IMG/VR virus record: IMGVR_UViG_3300044609_000036
Location: 1 to 46,393 of that record
DNA: 46,393 bases
From: a virus
Strand: one strand, 5' to 3'
Made by a program: the position numbers and the translations under genes. The notes beneath the pieces are model-generated. The model was not told the origin of the DNA and did not search any database. It saw nothing but the letters and a program-made list of their open reading frames with translations. The first letter of the stretch is position 1. Every line of letters starts with the position of its first letter. Of this stretch, positions 4,692 to 45,982 are shown one piece after another.

Positions 4692-5424
4692 TCCGTATGA
4701 GCAAGTGGAAGGTGAACTTTCCGCTGAAGAACTTGATTCTCTGGCAGTTGGTGAACGACTTGCCGAACAAGAAAATGAACTGTTGGCTGGTAAGTACCGC
4801 TCAGCAGAAGAACTAGAACGTGGTTACCTTGAACTCCAGAAGCGCCTGAGTGGTAAGCAAGAGGAGGTAGAGGAATCGCAACCAGAAGAGCCCGAACCTG
4901 ATGAGGCGCCGGAGGAGTTGGATCTCTATGATTCTATCATGGAATCTTACCGTACTGGTGAATGGGATCCAGAACTAGTTGGACATGTAGAGAACATGAG
5001 CCCTGTTGATGTGGCTAACATGTTCCTACAGAAGCAGCAAGAGTCAGTGCAAACTGAGCAGGCTACCTCTAATGATATTGAACAGATCCAAGAGTCAGTT
5101 GGTGGTACTGCTGAGTACCAAAACATGATTCAATGGGCTAGTCAGAACCTGAGTGAGCAAGAGATTGCTATGTACGATAAGGTGATGGATCGTGGTGACC
5201 CGCTGGGTATGTTCTTTGCTGTTCAAGCATTGAATGCACGGTACCAGGATGCTGTAGGGTACGACGGAGAGATGCTCACTGGTGCTGCTCCTCGTAACAC
5301 TGCTGATGCATTCCGTTCTCAAGCAGAACTTGTTGCTGCCATGAGTGACCCACGCTACGACAAAGATCCTGCCTATCGTCAAGATATTGCAGACAAACTC
5401 GAACGCTCTAACATTAACTTCTGA
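4669..5424 (+). CDS. Capsid assembly (scaffolding) protein, T7 gp9-like
   Basis: This 251-aa, strongly acidic, helix-rich protein lies between portal and the major capsid gene, where T7 carries gp9 (307 aa). Scaffold guides assembly of the capsid shell and leaves on maturation. The N-terminus has a Glu-rich helical stretch (EELDSLAVGERLAEQENELL) followed by KYRSAEELERGYLELQKRL, which is typical of cyanopodovirus scaffolds. A highly acidic linker follows at about 65-85. The C-terminal MSDPRYDKDPAYRQDIADKL resembles the capsid-contacting helix. The start overlaps the previous small gene and the stop overlaps hli (TGATG). Confidence 0.88.
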   Translation: MANEITLNPYEQVEGELSAEELDSLAVGERLAEQENELLAGKYRSAEELERGYLELQKRLSGKQEEVEESQPEEPEPDEAPEELDLYDSIMESYRTGEWDPELVGHVENMSPVDVANMFLQKQQESVQTEQATSNDIEQIQESVGGTAEYQNMIQWASQNLSEQEIAMYDKVMDRGDPLGMFFAVQALNARYQDAVGYDGEMLTGAAPRNTADAFRSQAELVAAMSDPRYDKDPAYRQDIADKLERSNINF

Positions 5425-5597
5425 TGAACGACACCAACATCTGGGCTAAAGAACCCCCCGTATACATGGATCCCTCTTATAACGTAATGCATAACGAACG
5501 TGCTGAACTCATCAACGGTCGCCTTGCTATGCTTGGCATTGTGGCTGCTCTTGGCGCTTATGTAGTGACTGGTCAAATCATTCCAGGAGTATTCTAA
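5424..5597 (+). CDS. hli: High-light-inducible protein (HLIP)
   Basis: This 57-aa protein carries the chlorophyll-binding single-helix signature [14 protein letters not shown], ending with TGQIIPGVF, as in cyanobacterial and cyanophage HLIPs. HLIPs sit in the thylakoid membrane, bind chlorophyll and carotenoid, and protect photosystem II during light stress and repair. The start ATG overlaps the scaffold stop (TGATG) and its stop overlaps the next start (TAATG). Its position between scaffold and psbA matches other T7-like cyanophages. It is probably co-expressed with psbA to keep photosynthesis running during infection. Confidence 0.92.
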
Positions 5598-5819: not shown

Positions 5820-6116
5820 ATGCTACCTCTTCTAACTACTCTGTCAGTCCTCACTAGCTGGTATGGCCCTGGCTTCAATGGCCGCCTCACTGCTAGTGGC
5901 GAACGATACAATCAAAACGGCCTTACTGCAGCGCACAAGACACTACCATTTGGAACACGCCTTCGGGTATGTTTTAATCGGTGTGCCGTTGTACGGGTCA
6001 CAGATCGCGGTCCCTTTATTCATGGAAGGGAAGTCGATCTCAGTAAAGGTGCGGCTGATGCTATCGGTCTCACTGCCAGTGGAGTTGGTAGGGTCCAAGT
6101 AACACGACTCAACTAA
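5820..6116 (+). CDS. RlpA-like double-psi beta-barrel protein
   Basis: This 98-aa protein matches the RlpA/expansin-like barrel: [18 protein letters not shown] near the N-terminus, [16 protein letters not shown] (with H39), then VRVTDRGPF (with D62) and [17 protein letters not shown]. In bacterial RlpA this domain cleaves peptidoglycan strands lacking stem peptides, using the conserved Asp and His seen here. A short hydrophobic start ([11 protein letters not shown]) might act as a signal segment but is weak. It lacks the SPOR domain of cellular RlpA. Its place directly before psbA is unusual for a wall enzyme. It could aid lysis, be a virion protein or be cargo acquired with psbA. Confidence 0.8.
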
Positions 6117-6124
6117 CACTACTA

Positions 6125-7207
6125 ATGTCTGCAACACTCGCAGCTCCACAGTCCCGAGTTAACCCTTGGGACTCTTATCTTGGCTGGGTAACCAGCACTA
6201 ACAACCGTCTTTATATTGGCCACTTTGGGGTGCTCATGATCCCATGCCTGTTGGCCGCTACTGCTTGCTTTATCCTTGCATTTATTGCTGCGCCTCCTGT
6301 TGACATTGATGGGATCCGCGAACCTGTCGCTGGGAGCCTACTCTATGGAAACAACATTATATCGGGAGCCGTCGTACCGAGCAGCAATGCCATCGGACTA
6401 CACTTCTACCCAATTTGGGAAGCTAATTCACTTGATGAATGGCTCTACAACGGCGGCCCTTTCCAACTCACAGTCTTCCACTTCCTCATTGGCATCTATG
6501 CTTACATGGGACGAGAGTGGGAACTTAGCTATCGACTAGGGATGAGGCCCTGGATCTTTGTTGCATACAGTGCCCCTGTCGCAGCCGCAACCGCTGTATT
6601 TCTTGTCTATCCCTTCGGACAAGGATCATTCTCTGACGCTATGCCTTTGGGTATATCGGGAACCTTCAACTACATGCTTGTCTTCCAAGCTGAGCATAAC
6701 ATCCTCATGCACCCGTTCCATATGTTGGGTGTTGCTGGAGTGTTTGGTGGTTCGCTATTCAGTGCAATGCATGGTTCCCTTGTTACGTCCTCGCTTGTGC
6801 GTGAGACGACTGAAGAGATCTCTCAGAACTATGGCTACAAGTTTGGCCAAGAAGAGGAGACCTACAATATCGTAGCTGCTCATGGTTACTTTGGACGTTT
6901 GATCTTCCAGTATGCATCCTTCAATAATTCTCGTAGCCTTCACTTCTTCCTTGCTGCTTGGCCTGTTGTTGGTATCTGGTTTGCTGCTTTGGGCGTTTCG
7001 ACCATGGCTTTCAATCTTAATGGTTTCAACTTTAACCAGAGCCTTGTCAGCTCTGAAGGGAAGGTGATTAACACCTGGGCTGACATTCTTAACCGAGCTG
7101 GGCTTGGCTTTGAAGTGATGCACGAACGTAATGCTCACAACTTCCCACTTGATCTGGCCAGTGCAGAGGTAATACCTGTTGCATTGGTTGCCCCTTCTAT
7201 TGGTTAA
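6125..7207 (+). CDS. psbA: Photosystem II D1 protein
   Basis: This 360-aa D1 core protein is full length and intact. It binds the reaction-centre cofactors and turns over quickly under light. Ligand regions are visible with an offset of +1 from standard numbering: Tyr162 (TyrZ), Asp171, E190-H191, the HPFHM histidine, and the C-terminal [12 protein letters not shown] processing site followed by SAE. The residue at the standard 130 position is Glu ([10 protein letters not shown]), the form linked to high-light D1. No intron is seen. A phage copy keeps photosystem II working while host psbA expression falls. It begins eight bases after the RlpA-like gene and is followed by a small gene and a terminator. 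Confidence 0.98.
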
Positions 7208-12393: not shown

Positions 12394-13302
12394 ATGGATC
12401 CATTTATTGGTGGATTAATCACTACTGGCATTAGCTCCATCTTTGGTGGCCTGGGTGGTCAAGCTGAGGCCAATGCTCAGAGAAGGGCTCAAGAGGCTCA
12501 ATATCAACAAAACCTACAGAGTTGGCAGTATGGTAAGAAGCGCATTAGGGCTGACTACCGCCAAGAAAAGAAGCAGTGGAAGTACAACAAACAGAACGAA
12601 GAGACACTAGCTGCTTGGAAGGATAGTACCAACCTACAGGATTGGGAATACACCAAGCGTATTCAGGATACTGAGTACGCCCAACAGATGAAGATCTTTG
12701 CTAAATCAGAGAAGATCTTCGGTCAGCAGCTGTCCTTCAATCAGATGGCACAGAGTGCTGCCCAGGAGGCTGAGTACCGCAAGCTGGAGGACTCCATGAA
12801 GGAGATTGCCTTCCAGAACCAAGACCTTGTTGTGAAGGCTGTACAGGCCGAAGGTGTTGCTGCTGTTAAAGGTCAACAAGGTAGGAGTGCCCAGAAGGGT
12901 GAGCAAGCTGAGTTCGCTTCACTTGGTCGTAACCAAGCCATCCTGGCTGAATCACTGCTTAGTGCTAGGGCTGATACTGACGCAGCTATGCGTAAGATTG
13001 CTAACGATAGATTTGGTGCTGATCTTGCTGCTGAAGCTGCTCGTATGCTTCAACCTGATCGTGTACCTGAACCTCCCAAACCCCTTACTACTCCACGAGC
13101 TAAGTTCCTCAAGCCACGTCAACCCAAACCATTCGACTTCGGTCCAAAGCCAATTAAGGGTGCTGCTCCATCGTCTGCTGGTGCATGGATGGGAGCCGCT
13201 AGTAATGCTGTCAGCGGTATTGCAGCAGCTGCTACAAGTGGTAGTAAGTACAACTTTAGTCTTAACAATTTATCAGCTAACCCATACACGCTACCAAAAT
13301 AA
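12394..13302 (+). CDS. Internal core protein, T7 gp14-like
   Basis: This 302-aa protein occupies the T7 gp14 position (T7 gp14 is 196 aa). The N-terminus (GGLITTGISSIFGGLGG) is hydrophobic and Gly-rich and could insert into the outer membrane on ejection, as T7 gp14 does. Residues about 28-130 form a long charged helix with many Gln, Lys, Tyr and Trp. The C-terminal third is Pro-rich and then Ala/Gly-rich. It has one of the few textbook Shine-Dalgarno sites in the genome (AGGAGG seven bases before ATG). The assignment rests on order, N-terminus and length; the primary match to T7 is weak. Confidence 0.8.
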   Translation: MDPFIGGLITTGISSIFGGLGGQAEANAQRRAQEAQYQQNLQSWQYGKKRIRADYRQEKKQWKYNKQNEETLAAWKDSTNLQDWEYTKRIQDTEYAQQMKIFAKSEKIFGQQLSFNQMAQSAAQEAEYRKLEDSMKEIAFQNQDLVVKAVQAEGVAAVKGQQGRSAQKGEQAEFASLGRNQAILAESLLSARADTDAAMRKIANDRFGADLAAEAARMLQPDRVPEPPKPLTTPRAKFLKPRQPKPFDFGPKPIKGAAPSSAGAWMGAASNAVSGIAAAATSGSKYNFSLNNLSANPYTLPK

Positions 13303-42372: not shown

Positions 42373-42590
42373 CTGACCTCTCACCCGCCGCGCAGGCTGT
42401 GCTGGATGCAGTGGCGCCGCACCCTGCCTACGGTCCAGCAATCGCCGCCGCCCTCCGCGCTGCTACGCGTGAGGTGGCGCCCCCGCCGCCGCCCTCAAAC
42501 TCGGGTGACCCTGAAATGCTGAAAGGCATCTGGGATGAGCGCAGAGCCATTCGCGCCAAACTCCTCGCTATCGCCGAAGAGCTGGAGTGA
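42369..42590 (+). CDS. Small G+C-rich protein inserted before DNA polymerase
   Basis: This 73-aa protein starts at GTG 42369, overlapping the previous stop (GTGA). It reads TDLSPAAQAVLDAVAPHPAY, then GPAIAAALRAATREV, a run of prolines, and ends RAKLLAIAEELE. This pattern (LSPAAQAVLDA... IAAALRAA... LLAIAEELE) is familiar from small hypothetical proteins in marine cyanobacteria and their phages. Codons are clearly richer in G+C than in the genes on both sides, suggesting recent acquisition. Function is unknown. An earlier GTG at 42357 is also in frame. Confidence 0.65.
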   Translation: MTDLSPAAQAVLDAVAPHPAYGPAIAAALRAATREVAPPPPPSNSGDPEMLKGIWDERRAIRAKLLAIAEELE

Positions 42591-42592
42591 CT

Positions 42593-43111
42593 ATGAACCT
42601 AATCTTTGACTTAGAGACAGACGGCCTGTATGATCATTGCTCCAAGATTCACTGTGTTGGCATCTATGATCTCGATACCAAACAAACTCTTGTCTTCAAT
42701 GATGAAGGTAGTGAGCAACCGATCACAAAGGGCATCCAAATGCTTGAGGACGCCAAGTCACTTATCGGCCACAACATCATTGGATACGACCTGCCGGTGA
42801 TACGTAAGTTGTTTCCGTGGTTCACTCCCAATGCTATCATTGTCGATACACTTGTACTGAGTCGCATCTACCACGCAGACATCCTTAAGACAGATCAGAA
42901 GCGTAGGCTAAAGACCATGCCACCCAAGTTACAGGGCCGTCACAGTCTTGAAGCATACGGTTACCGACTGGGTGAGTACAAGGGAGAGTTTGGCAAGGAC
43001 ACTGACTGGAAGCACTGGTCACAGGAGATGCAAGACTATTGTGTACAAGATGTACAAGTAACTTATAAACTATGGCAACACTTCCATCCATACCTGACTT
43101 CATCAAACTAG
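42593..43111 (+). CDS. DNA polymerase, 3'-5' proofreading exonuclease part
   Basis: This 172-aa protein is a complete DEDD-type exonuclease domain as in the N-terminal third of T7 gp5: NLIFDLETDGL (D and E of motif I), SLIGHNIIGYDLPVI (motif II) and YCVQDVQVTYKLW (Tyr and Asp of motif III). The polymerase domain is in a separate frame that begins at 43072, 40 bases before this stop. ATG 42593 is preferred; GTG 42587 overlaps the previous gene. It presumably associates with the polymerase part, and a frameshift fusion is also possible, though no classic slippery heptamer is seen in the overlap. Confidence 0.88.
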   Translation: MNLIFDLETDGLYDHCSKIHCVGIYDLDTKQTLVFNDEGSEQPITKGIQMLEDAKSLIGHNIIGYDLPVIRKLFPWFTPNAIIVDTLVLSRIYHADILKTDQKRRLKTMPPKLQGRHSLEAYGYRLGEYKGEFGKDTDWKHWSQEMQDYCVQDVQVTYKLWQHFHPYLTSSN

Positions 43112-44352
43112 AACATGATGTCGCCTCCATCCTCACCACCCAAGAATTACATGGATGGTACTTTGACGAAGCTGCTGCACGGGAACTTGCACAAGCTCTC
43201 TACTCCGAGCTTGATGGCCTTAATCGTGTACTACGGAAGCGGTACCCTTACGTTGCTGGACGCGAATTTACTCCGAAGAGATCTAACCGCACCACAGGAT
43301 ATGTAGGTGGTGCCACAGTAACCAAGCTAAAGGAGTTCAGCCCTACCAGTCGTGATCACATTGCGTGGGTCATGACTAACCTGCACGGTTGGATCCCCGA
43401 TAAAGAGACAGCAAGTGGCAAGACTGCCATTGACGAAACAGTTCTCAAAGACATCGGGACAGAGGAAGCCCTGCAGTTCTTCCGTTGCCTGGAATTAACC
43501 AAGCAACTAGGCATGTTGTCTGAGGGCAAGAATGCCTGGCTTAAACTGGTACGTGGTAATCGCATTCACCACCACTGTTCAGTTGCTACGAACACACACC
43601 GTTGTGCCCACCGTAATCCCAACCTTGCACAGGTACCGAGTGGCCTTAACTTTAGAAAGCTATTTATCCCTAGCCCTGGCCTTTGCATGGTTGGTGCTGA
43701 CCTCTCAGGGATTGAATTGCGAATGCTTGCCCACTATCTGGCTAGATATGATGGAGGCAGGTACGGAGACGTTCTTCTCAACGGTGACATTCACCAGGAG
43801 AATGCAGACAAGATAGGCATTAGCCGCCGACTTGTCAAGACAGTTACGTACGCATTTTTGTACGGCGCTGGAGACCAGAAGATAGGTATTAGTTATGACC
43901 CAAGCCTTCCCCCGGACAAGGCCAAGAAAAAAGGTGCGGAAATACGATCCGCTTATGTTGCTGCCATTGACGGCCTGGATAGCCTTCTTACCGCTGTTCG
44001 TCAAGCTGGTGAGCGAGGGTTTATCAAATCGATAGACGGTCGTAAGATCTCTGTTGATAGTCCACACAAAGCACTCAATTACTTATTGCAATCGGGTGCC
44101 GGTGTTGTAGCTAAGCGGTGGATGGTCATTGCTGACCAAAACTTTCCCACCATTGACAACGATTACATCCTTCACACTCATCAGCTTGCATTCGTTCACG
44201 ACGAATTGCAGTACGAGTGCCTACCAGCCTACGCAGAAGACCTTAAGAACCACCTAGAGCTGTGTGCTTCCCTTGCGGGGGAGTACTATGAGCTACGTGT
44301 TCCAATCGCTGCTGAGGGCAAGATAGGCGCCTCTTGGGCTGATGTCCACTAG
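43072..44352 (+). CDS. DNA polymerase I family, polymerase part, T7 gp5-like
   Basis: This 426-aa protein has the family A motifs: HRCAHRNPNLAQVPSG, motif A GADLSGIELRMLAHYL (about 209), motif B LVKTVTYAFLYGAGDQKIG (about 255) and motif C FVHDELQYECLP (about 376). The frame is shifted -1 relative to the exonuclease gene, with a 40-base overlap. Between RYPYV and FSPTSRDHI the T7 enzyme has about 70 residues that bind thioredoxin; here only about 27 remain. It therefore probably uses another means of processivity. It copies the phage genome at the fork with the helicase and SSB. Confidence 0.95.
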   Translation: MATLPSIPDFIKLEHDVASILTTQELHGWYFDEAAARELAQALYSELDGLNRVLRKRYPYVAGREFTPKRSNRTTGYVGGATVTKLKEFSPTSRDHIAWVMTNLHGWIPDKETASGKTAIDETVLKDIGTEEALQFFRCLELTKQLGMLSEGKNAWLKLVRGNRIHHHCSVATNTHRCAHRNPNLAQVPSGLNFRKLFIPSPGLCMVGADLSGIELRMLAHYLARYDGGRYGDVLLNGDIHQENADKIGISRRLVKTVTYAFLYGAGDQKIGISYDPSLPPDKAKKKGAEIRSAYVAAIDGLDSLLTAVRQAGERGFIKSIDGRKISVDSPHKALNYLLQSGAGVVAKRWMVIADQNFPTIDNDYILHTHQLAFVHDELQYECLPAYAEDLKNHLELCASLAGEYYELRVPIAAEGKIGASWADVH

Positions 44353-44380: not shown

Positions 44381-44512
44381 ATGGCACGATCTAAAACTGA
44401 CCTGGGACGTACTAAGTTCCAATCTCGAGCTAAATTTAAACATACTCACCAGGGTAACGGTACTCGATCCCTACCCAAACGTGGCCGCAAACTTAAGCGG
44501 GGTCAAGGGTGA
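44381..44512 (+). CDS. Small very basic protein
   Basis: This 43-aa protein has many Arg, Lys and Gly residues (MARSKTDLGRTKFQSRAKFK, ending LPKRGRKLKRGQG). It is coupled to the exonuclease by GTGA. It probably binds nucleic acid. No family is recognised. The gene is too short for usual gene callers. Confidence 0.6.
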   Translation: MARSKTDLGRTKFQSRAKFKHTHQGNGTRSLPKRGRKLKRGQG

Positions 44513-45276
44513 GCCTCCTTATTGACGCTGATTATATTGTCTACAAGGCATGTGCCGCTAACGAGGCTGAAGTAGACTTCGGTGATGACGTTATCTTTGT
44601 AACTTCTAAGTTTACAGAAGTAATGAAGTCCATCGAACGTGAACTTTACCAAATAGCTAATGACCTTGGGTGTTTTGATGACAGTATCCTTTTCTTTTCT
44701 GATGCTGTTAACTTTCGCAAATCTATTGATCCAAACTATAAAGGACATAGAAACCGAAAGAAACCGTGTGGATACCGTAGGGCGATCAATGCGCTCCGCG
44801 AGACGTACCACGTTGTAACCATCCCAAAACTGGAGGCTGACGATGCCCTAGGTATCTACGCCACTAAAGAGCCTGGACACATCCTTTGTAGCCCCGACAA
44901 GGACATGCGACAGATCCCTGGGGACCTGTATGACCTGACAGATGGGGTGACCACTGTAGAGCCTGAGGAGGGCCGCAGGTGGCACCTCATCCAGACACTG
45001 GCAGGTGACCAGACAGATGGTTACGCTGGTGTTCCTGGTATTGGTATCAAGCGAGCAGTAGCCCTGTTTGAAAAGGAGGGTTACACTTGGGATACAGTAG
45101 TCAAAGCATTTGCTGAGAAAGATCTCGGCGAGGATGTAGCACTAATGAACGCCCGCCTAGCTAAGATCTTACAGCATGATGACTATGATTTCACCAATCA
45201 AGAACCAAGACTTTGGAATCCCAGCCCCGATACTGGAGCTGACAATGGAGCAGCAGTTCAAACTGAAGCAGATTGA
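44509..45276 (+). CDS. 5'-3' exonuclease, T7 gp6-like
   Basis: This 255-aa protein is of the FEN/5'-nuclease family. It has LLIDADYIVYKA at the N-terminus, FSDAVNFRKSIDPNYKGHRN with the helical arch, KLEADDALGIYA and CSPDKDMRQIPG metal-binding aspartates, and LAGDQTDGYAGVPGIGIKRA, the helix-three-turn DNA-binding part. The start is GTG 44509 overlapping the previous stop. It degrades host DNA to recycle nucleotides and removes primers. The last 100 bases are overlapped by the NblA-like gene in another frame, and its C-terminal tail is poorly structured. Confidence 0.93.
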   Translation: MSLLIDADYIVYKACAANEAEVDFGDDVIFVTSKFTEVMKSIERELYQIANDLGCFDDSILFFSDAVNFRKSIDPNYKGHRNRKKPCGYRRAINALRETYHVVTIPKLEADDALGIYATKEPGHILCSPDKDMRQIPGDLYDLTDGVTTVEPEEGRRWHLIQTLAGDQTDGYAGVPGIGIKRAVALFEKEGYTWDTVVKAFAEKDLGEDVALMNARLAKILQHDDYDFTNQEPRLWNPSPDTGADNGAAVQTEAD

Positions 45277-45472
45277 AGATGCTCTACGGCATCCCGAGTC
45301 ACACAAGGAGGACATCATCACGATCTTCCTTGCTTTACAACGCCAGTGCTTTGTACTTGGCAATTCAATGTCTAACCTAGTTAAGAAATGGCCCACTCCA
45401 ATTCCACAGGCCCCAACTACTACCAACGGGGAAACATCCAAGTCTGGGATTTCATTCGAGACCAAGACCTGA
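45176..45472 (+). CDS. NblA-like phycobilisome degradation adaptor (probable)
   Basis: The frame gives 98 aa. Residues about 20-73 resemble NblA: ILELTMEQQFKLKQIEDAL, like the ELSLEQQF start of cellular NblA, then a turn, a second helix DIITIFLALQRQCFVLGN and a basic NLVKKWP end, where cellular NblA has a KH-W end. NblA links phycobilisome proteins to the Clp protease, causing antenna loss. NblA-like genes are known, from memory, in freshwater cyanomyoviruses and some marine T7-like cyanophages. The gene overlaps the exonuclease end by 101 bases and the DUF3310 gene by 85. The start is one of ATG 45176, 45179 or 45185. The extra Pro/Thr-rich C-terminus (PTPIPQAPTTT) is unusual for NblA. Confidence 0.65.
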   Translation: MMTMISPIKNQDFGIPAPILELTMEQQFKLKQIEDALRHPESHKEDIITIFLALQRQCFVLGNSMSNLVKKWPTPIPQAPTTTNGETSKSGISFETKT

Positions 45473-45711
45473 ACTTCCACCTTGGCAATGCCATCAAATA
45501 CATCTGCCGTGCTGGTCACAAAGGTGTAGGTGGTCTCAGCATGTCTGAGGCTTATATCAAAGATCTTAAAAAAGCTATCCACTATCTACAAAATGAGCTT
45601 GACAATGAAGTTGTCCCCCCAGCAACAAGCACAGGAGTTCAGGAAAAGTTTCCGGGTCAGCAACAGTACGAGTCCAGCTTCACGGACTATGCAACGGACT
45701 TTGATCGTTGA
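45388..45711 (+). CDS. DUF3310 protein (putative nucleotide kinase-like)
   Basis: This 107-aa protein has the DUF3310 pattern: YYQRGNIQVWDFIRDQDLNF, then HLGNAIKYICRAGHK and DLKKAIHYLQNEL. The family includes domains linked to T7 gp1.7, a nucleotide kinase that affects dGMP/dTMP use. A nucleotide role fits its neighbours mazG and nrdA. The last 35 residues are poorly conserved and overlap the mazG start. Confidence 0.85.
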   Translation: MAHSNSTGPNYYQRGNIQVWDFIRDQDLNFHLGNAIKYICRAGHKGVGGLSMSEAYIKDLKKAIHYLQNELDNEVVPPATSTGVQEKFPGQQQYESSFTDYATDFDR

Positions 45712-45982
45712 AGAGTTCAAAGAGTTCCTGGATGCTGAGAATCAGCTGATCAAGGGCTTCGCTGTGAACGCAGCCGATTGCCTTAAAGAGTTAGCTGATC
45801 TTGTCTATGTTTGCTACCAATATGCAGAGAATCTTGGATGGGACCTGGATGAAGCGCTGCATCGTGTACATCAAAGCAACCTGTCCAAGCTTGATGATAA
45901 CGGACAACCGCTCTACCGCAATGATGGTAAAGTATTAAAGGGTCCCAACTACCAACCACCCAATCTTAATAACTTGGTATGA
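45605..45982 (+). CDS. mazG: MazG-type nucleotide pyrophosphohydrolase
   Basis: This 125-aa protein has the metal-binding EEFKEFLDAE (EExxE) and ELADLVYVCYQYAE (ExxD) motifs and the family C-terminus HQSNLSKLDDNGQPLYRNDG, then KVLKGPNYQPPNL. The start ATG 45605 (MKLSPQQQAQEFRKSF) is preferred to longer frames inside DUF3310. MazG proteins hydrolyse (d)NTPs; cyanophage versions may favour dGTP/dCTP and adjust the pool to phage needs. It overlaps nrdA by ATGA, so nucleotide turnover and reduction are co-expressed. Confidence 0.92.
   Translation: MKLSPQQQAQEFRKSFRVSNSTSPASRTMQRTLIVEEFKEFLDAENQLIKGFAVNAADCLKELADLVYVCYQYAENLGWDLDEALHRVHQSNLSKLDDNGQPLYRNDGKVLKGPNYQPPNLNNLV

Follow-up and report, generated by a model that had tools for sequence, protein, structure and literature searches.

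The locus studied here raises the question of whether a short open frame, lodged between two phage genes and overlapping both of them, is a functional nblA gene. The window, by which we mean the whole stretch of 46,393 bases that was analysed, is an uncultured virus record with a T7-like cyanophage gene set, comprising RNA polymerase, primase-helicase, split DNA polymerase, exonuclease, connector, and terminase genes, plus psbA and hli. Among annotated phages, the one closest to it is Synechococcus phage DSL-LC07, which came from a lake in China; DNA identity is ~80% across 96% of the replication module, and the RNA polymerases are 89% identical. The presence of psbA and hli in the same phage, part of the original prediction, was confirmed: psbA, which encodes the photosystem II D1 protein, lies at 6125..7207 on the plus strand (PF00124, E 2.5e-87), and hli, which encodes a high-light-inducible protein, at 5424..5597 on the same strand (PF00504, E 3.7e-5, over the cut-off, with the hli motif). 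A small DPBB/lytic transglycosylase-like gene of the RlpA type sits between the two (5820-6116). The T7-like DNA polymerase (region 42587-44352) is encoded by two overlapping frames, 42587-43111 and 43072-44352, and is likewise two-part in S-TIP37 and P-SSP7, where annotators propose a split gene or a programmed frameshift.

In cells, NblA works as a dimer, a helix-loop-helix adaptor that links phycobiliproteins and ClpC (PMC7966870, PMC4103541); its N-terminal motif is implicated in the binding of ClpC and its C-terminal one in that of phycobiliproteins (PMC4103541). NblA proteins likewise carried by phages and acting on the host antenna are known from freshwater cyanophages (Ma-LMM01, MaMV-DC, PaV-LD) and cyanomyoviruses (S-TIM5, S-SCSM1) (PMC9602691, PMC4103541). 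According to the published tree, these belong to clades other than that of the podoviral nblA genes, which form a cluster of their own (PMC9602691). The same source states that nblA was predicted by Nadel et al. 2019 in 14 cyanopodovirus isolates (PMC9602691), and the orthologue group of the window, as far as that account allows it to be placed, is most likely among these 14 genes. Hence, the gene is not new, and its novelty is low: it is a new copy of an nblA gene already known from T7-like cyanophages. NblA is described as being encoded by many oceanic cyanophages, as breaking down the light-harvesting complexes of the host, and as lowering light capture (Nadel et al., Nature 2025, 648:434-442; PMC12892361).

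The frame had been placed at 45176-45472 on the plus strand. This stretch is indeed open, encodes 98 aa that include the motifs ELTMEQQFKL and NLVKKW, and shares 101 bases with the exonuclease ORF and 85 bases with the DUF3310 ORF, as claimed; the start is the part that probably needs correction. The upstream gene (44509..45276, plus strand) encodes a T7 gp6-like 5'-3' exonuclease (PF02739, E 1.4e-10; phrog_107 exonuclease), and the downstream one (45388..45711, plus strand) a DUF3310 protein (PF11753, E 1.4e-11). The DUF3310 ORF in turn overlaps the MazG-like ORF that follows it (the pair spans 45388-45982), so that exonuclease, nblA, DUF3310, and MazG each overlap the next. Upstream of the exonuclease, positions 44381-44512 hold a strongly basic ORF of 43 aa with a marginal PHROG match only.

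ATG45176 is not conserved, and the extension that it would add (45176..45184, plus strand) reads KTM, LIM, VMTM, and so on in homologues, with no common start codon. Meanwhile, ATG45185 is kept in 57 of 59 distinct relatives; exonuclease residues encoded at this position may contribute to the conservation of that codon. As judged from sequence conservation, the gene probably starts at ATG45185 rather than ATG45176, which gives 95 aa and a 92-base exonuclease overlap. This likeliest extent (45185..45472, plus strand, stop included) is also supported by a pN/pS of 0.30 over codons 4-20, a ratio that is only indicative in overlapping genes, and by the PF04485 match of the 95-aa protein. A further ATG within the frame, ATG45245, follows a GGAG at 45235 that ends six bases upstream of it, and is the start implied by PHROG_27006. 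It is less likely to be the main start: S-TIP37, P-SSP7, and others are without it, it would truncate the Pfam domain, and the codons upstream of it are constrained in the NblA frame. It may serve as an additional internal start.

A profile search, one of the checks proposed for this frame, returned PF04485 as the sole Pfam match of the protein (E 2.7e-4 for 98 aa, 2.5e-4 for 95 aa), and the protein is the single PF04485 site of the whole record. The alignment spans profile positions 1-49 of 50, that is, the whole helix-loop-helix domain. The score of 21.8-21.9 bits is under the 25 bits that Pfam sets as its curated cut-off, a criterion that is operational and not biological, whereas the S-TIP37 orthologue, at 28 bits, is over it. 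PF04485 matched 28 of 45 diverse orthologues (best E 3.5e-6), and the P-SSP7 copy, PSSP7_019A, gave no PF04485 match in the profile search. When phage and cellular NblA profiles were compared with hhalign, the probability was 88% over 52 columns at ~23% identity. The reverse search, in which the phage-family profile was run against 292 cyanobacterial genomes, gave 14 hits with E up to 0.01, ten of which, at loci to which PF04485 gives about 63-92 bits, are authentic nblA genes. The only PDB sequence match at E<=10 was NblA 3cs5 (E 0.19 with the single sequence, 0.016 with the profile). A contig scan with an S. elongatus NblA fragment yielded a single cyanobacterial locus, which then served as the centre for family searches.

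The residue pattern agrees with this assignment. E22, Q23, K26, N60, N64, and W69 are invariant among 45 homologues, F25 is nearly invariant, and L65 and K67 align with Leu51 and Lys53 of Anabaena NblA, which Bienert et al. 2006 reportedly implicated in antenna binding. The motifs of both NblA ends, the putative ClpC-binding one at the N-terminus and the putative phycobiliprotein-binding one at the C-terminus, can be read from the sequence. Shared with cyanobacterial NblA (PF04485; 3cs5 of S. elongatus; Anabaena) are a helix-loop-helix core of ~50 residues, the L(S/T)xEQxF that opens helix 1, and an L-x-K close to the end of helix 2. The phage protein differs by its low identity (~23%), a longer N-terminal segment (SPIKNQDFGxPAP), usually two more loop residues, a W-P past helix 2, and an overprinted tail. 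The NblA identity, originally read from ELTMEQQFKL and NLVKKW, is thus upheld by the profile match, the S-TIP37 orthologue over the cut-off, and the reciprocal hits, together with the two predicted helices and the selection described below, and by this evidence we identify the frame as a divergent NblA homologue.

Orthologues for the analysis of selection came from viral contigs, with 192 matches confirmed in the first scan, at least 416 in the second, and 80 loci kept from each; counts were made on 63 distinct aligned sequences, which are related and not independent. In the 111 bases that belong to neither neighbour (45277-45387), diversity per codon position was 0.21/0.07/0.44, as is typical of coding sequence, and pN/pS was 0.22. 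Within the exonuclease overlap, where simple pN/pS is only indicative, the NblA frame displayed ratios of 0.30 (codons 4-20) and 0.09 (codons 21-33) and the exonuclease frame 1.9 and 8.3 for the corresponding segments. The relation was reversed in the DUF3310 overlap, with equally indicative ratios of 0.84 in the NblA frame versus 0.41 in the DUF3310 frame. Despite the caveats on these counts, the contrast from segment to segment is large. Since the NblA frame is constrained and the exonuclease frame is not, the data suggest that, of the two, it is the exonuclease C-terminus that has the greater freedom, as if it were an extension over nblA. The last ~30 codons of the exonuclease (45178-45276) have a pN/pS >1 in their own frame among relatives, with no constraint at the protein level.

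The two helices named in the structure-prediction check were predicted in the AlphaFold monomer model. Neither sequence-level ground for refutation, lack of a profile match or of a two-helix arrangement, was thus borne out. Predicted helix 1 (residues 21-35; 45245..45289, plus strand) starts with MEQQFKL, which holds the NblA signature EQxF and coincides with the alternative internal ATG, and predicted helix 2 (residues 41-68; 45305..45388, plus strand) ends with NLVKK; a short loop joins them, and the pLDDT of the core block is mostly 79-90. Could the frame be no gene at all, staying open by chance because the exonuclease and DUF3310 frames are under coding constraint? Its neighbours do overlap both ends, and the tail does track the DUF3310 frame. 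However, the 111 bases outside both neighbours vary at codon position 3 and show a low pN/pS in the NblA frame, and the exonuclease overlap is constrained in the NblA and not in the exonuclease frame. Against the cellular NblA profile, moreover, the real protein scored 18.9 bits, above all of 20,000 shuffles (best 9.9 bits), and the runner-up among the 518 stop-to-stop frames of the window reached 3.8 bits. We consider a chance frame to be refuted by the selection and shuffle tests and hardly credible, and the reported frame to be a real, selected gene. Alternatively, the resemblance to NblA might be convergent, the protein being a generic two-helix phage product such as a small regulator. Fold searches with the monomer model were uninformative on the NblA-type fold and its dimer, a four-helix bundle: they retrieved no NblA structure and nothing under E 0.1 in PDB or BFVD, the hairpin being too generic, and the matches obtained (Z ~6) were to helical hairpins of unrelated proteins, CsoR and needle proteins among them. 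The score under the Pfam cut-off would also fit convergence. Against this, ten genomes yield true nblA genes in the reciprocal search, the orthologue of S-TIP37 scores over the cut-off, and the sole PDB sequence match is NblA, which makes convergence very improbable.

Our preferred reading, to which we give a probability of about 0.87, is that the ORF is a functional nblA of the cyanopodovirus subfamily, most likely acting like cellular NblA. We infer the same action because residues of both ends are kept (E22, Q23, F25; L65, K67), and phycobilisome binding, ClpC recruitment, and benefit to the phage are proposed by analogy with the NblA family. The phage protein, a small helix-loop-helix, would touch phycobiliproteins with one end and recruit ClpC through its N-terminal EQxF region. 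The host Clp protease would then digest the antenna, which would supply the phage with amino acids and lower the excitation load, while its psbA and hli would keep photosystem II running. Host light harvesting would be reduced, the effect ascribed to viral NblA in published accounts. An NblA homologue by descent might instead have been repurposed, its ClpC-adaptor end delivering another host protein or acting as a decoy or anti-adaptor at ClpC. The sequence is distant from cellular NblA, residues conserved in this family (N60, N64, ALQxQ) are atypical for it, and NblA-like orthologues are kept in P-SSP7, P-SSP3, and NATL1A-7, phages of Prochlorococcus, which is not known to have phycobilisomes. 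Because of this host trait, and because the P-SSP7 copy is unseen by PF04485, function may vary within the podoviral NblA family, and the orthologues in Prochlorococcus phages are the one point that merits follow-up. For the window protein, repurposing is unlikely, since its N-terminal EQxF and C-terminal L-x-K both align with cellular NblA and phage NblA expressed elsewhere is reported to cause phycobilin loss (PMC9602691). We regard as decidedly unlikely a related idea, that some podoviral members, foremost those of Prochlorococcus phages, have given up phycobilisomes as a target and send another host protein to Clp via the ClpC-adaptor end, an added target that the window protein may share.

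About 20 sequenced cyanopodoviruses, and hundreds of contigs from metagenomes, carry an orthologue at the same position. Matches were obtained in 37 phage records, with S-TIP37, S-CBP1/3/4, DSL-LC07, S-B28, S-RIP1/2, KBS-P-1A, S-SBP1, S-SRP01, P-SSP2/3/7, and NATL1A-7 among the phages; no match was found in related phages including 9515-10a, P-SSP10, P-GSP1, Syn5, and P60, where divergence might mask one. In T7-like cyanopodoviruses (S-TIP37, S-CBP1/3/4, DSL-LC07, S-RIP2, KBS-P-1A, and P-SSP7), the gene lies between the exonuclease and DUF3310/MazG. These proteins are 44-73% identical to that of the window, with the same exonuclease overlap and a PHROG_27006 match (E 7e-34). The expectation that gene callers could miss the frame proved correct for S-TIP37, S-SBP1, DSL-LC07, and S-RIP2, where it is left unannotated, but not for P-SSP7, P-SSP2, S-CBP1, S-CBP4, and KBS-P-1A, where it was called and annotated as a hypothetical or uncharacterized protein. 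S-TIP37, reportedly used in the 2025 study, has one PF04485 site, at the orthologous position (ORF 12467-12703 of MH540083), with no separate CDS annotated for it in GenBank. Since annotations often omit the gene or list it as hypothetical, and PHROG_27006 bears the label unknown function, nblA carriage is undercounted in databases; giving the frame a name, together with its likely start and overprinted tail, would set this right.

The orthologues differ from the window protein in the length and sequence of the tail, along with the DUF3310 overlap, and otherwise in nothing of consequence. This Pro/Thr-rich tail (45392..45469, plus strand), overprinted on the DUF3310 N-terminus, is predicted to be disordered (AlphaFold pLDDT <50 from residue 78) and is different or shorter in relatives, that of S-TIP37 ending in PSHHPITPEEQ. 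It had been singled out as an extension unfamiliar from cellular NblA. A functional addition to NblA is rejected on the indicative pN/pS ratios, the DUF3310 frame being the constrained one; by these ratios the tail is an other-frame reading of DUF3310 codons with no clear selection as NblA, a by-product of the overlap.
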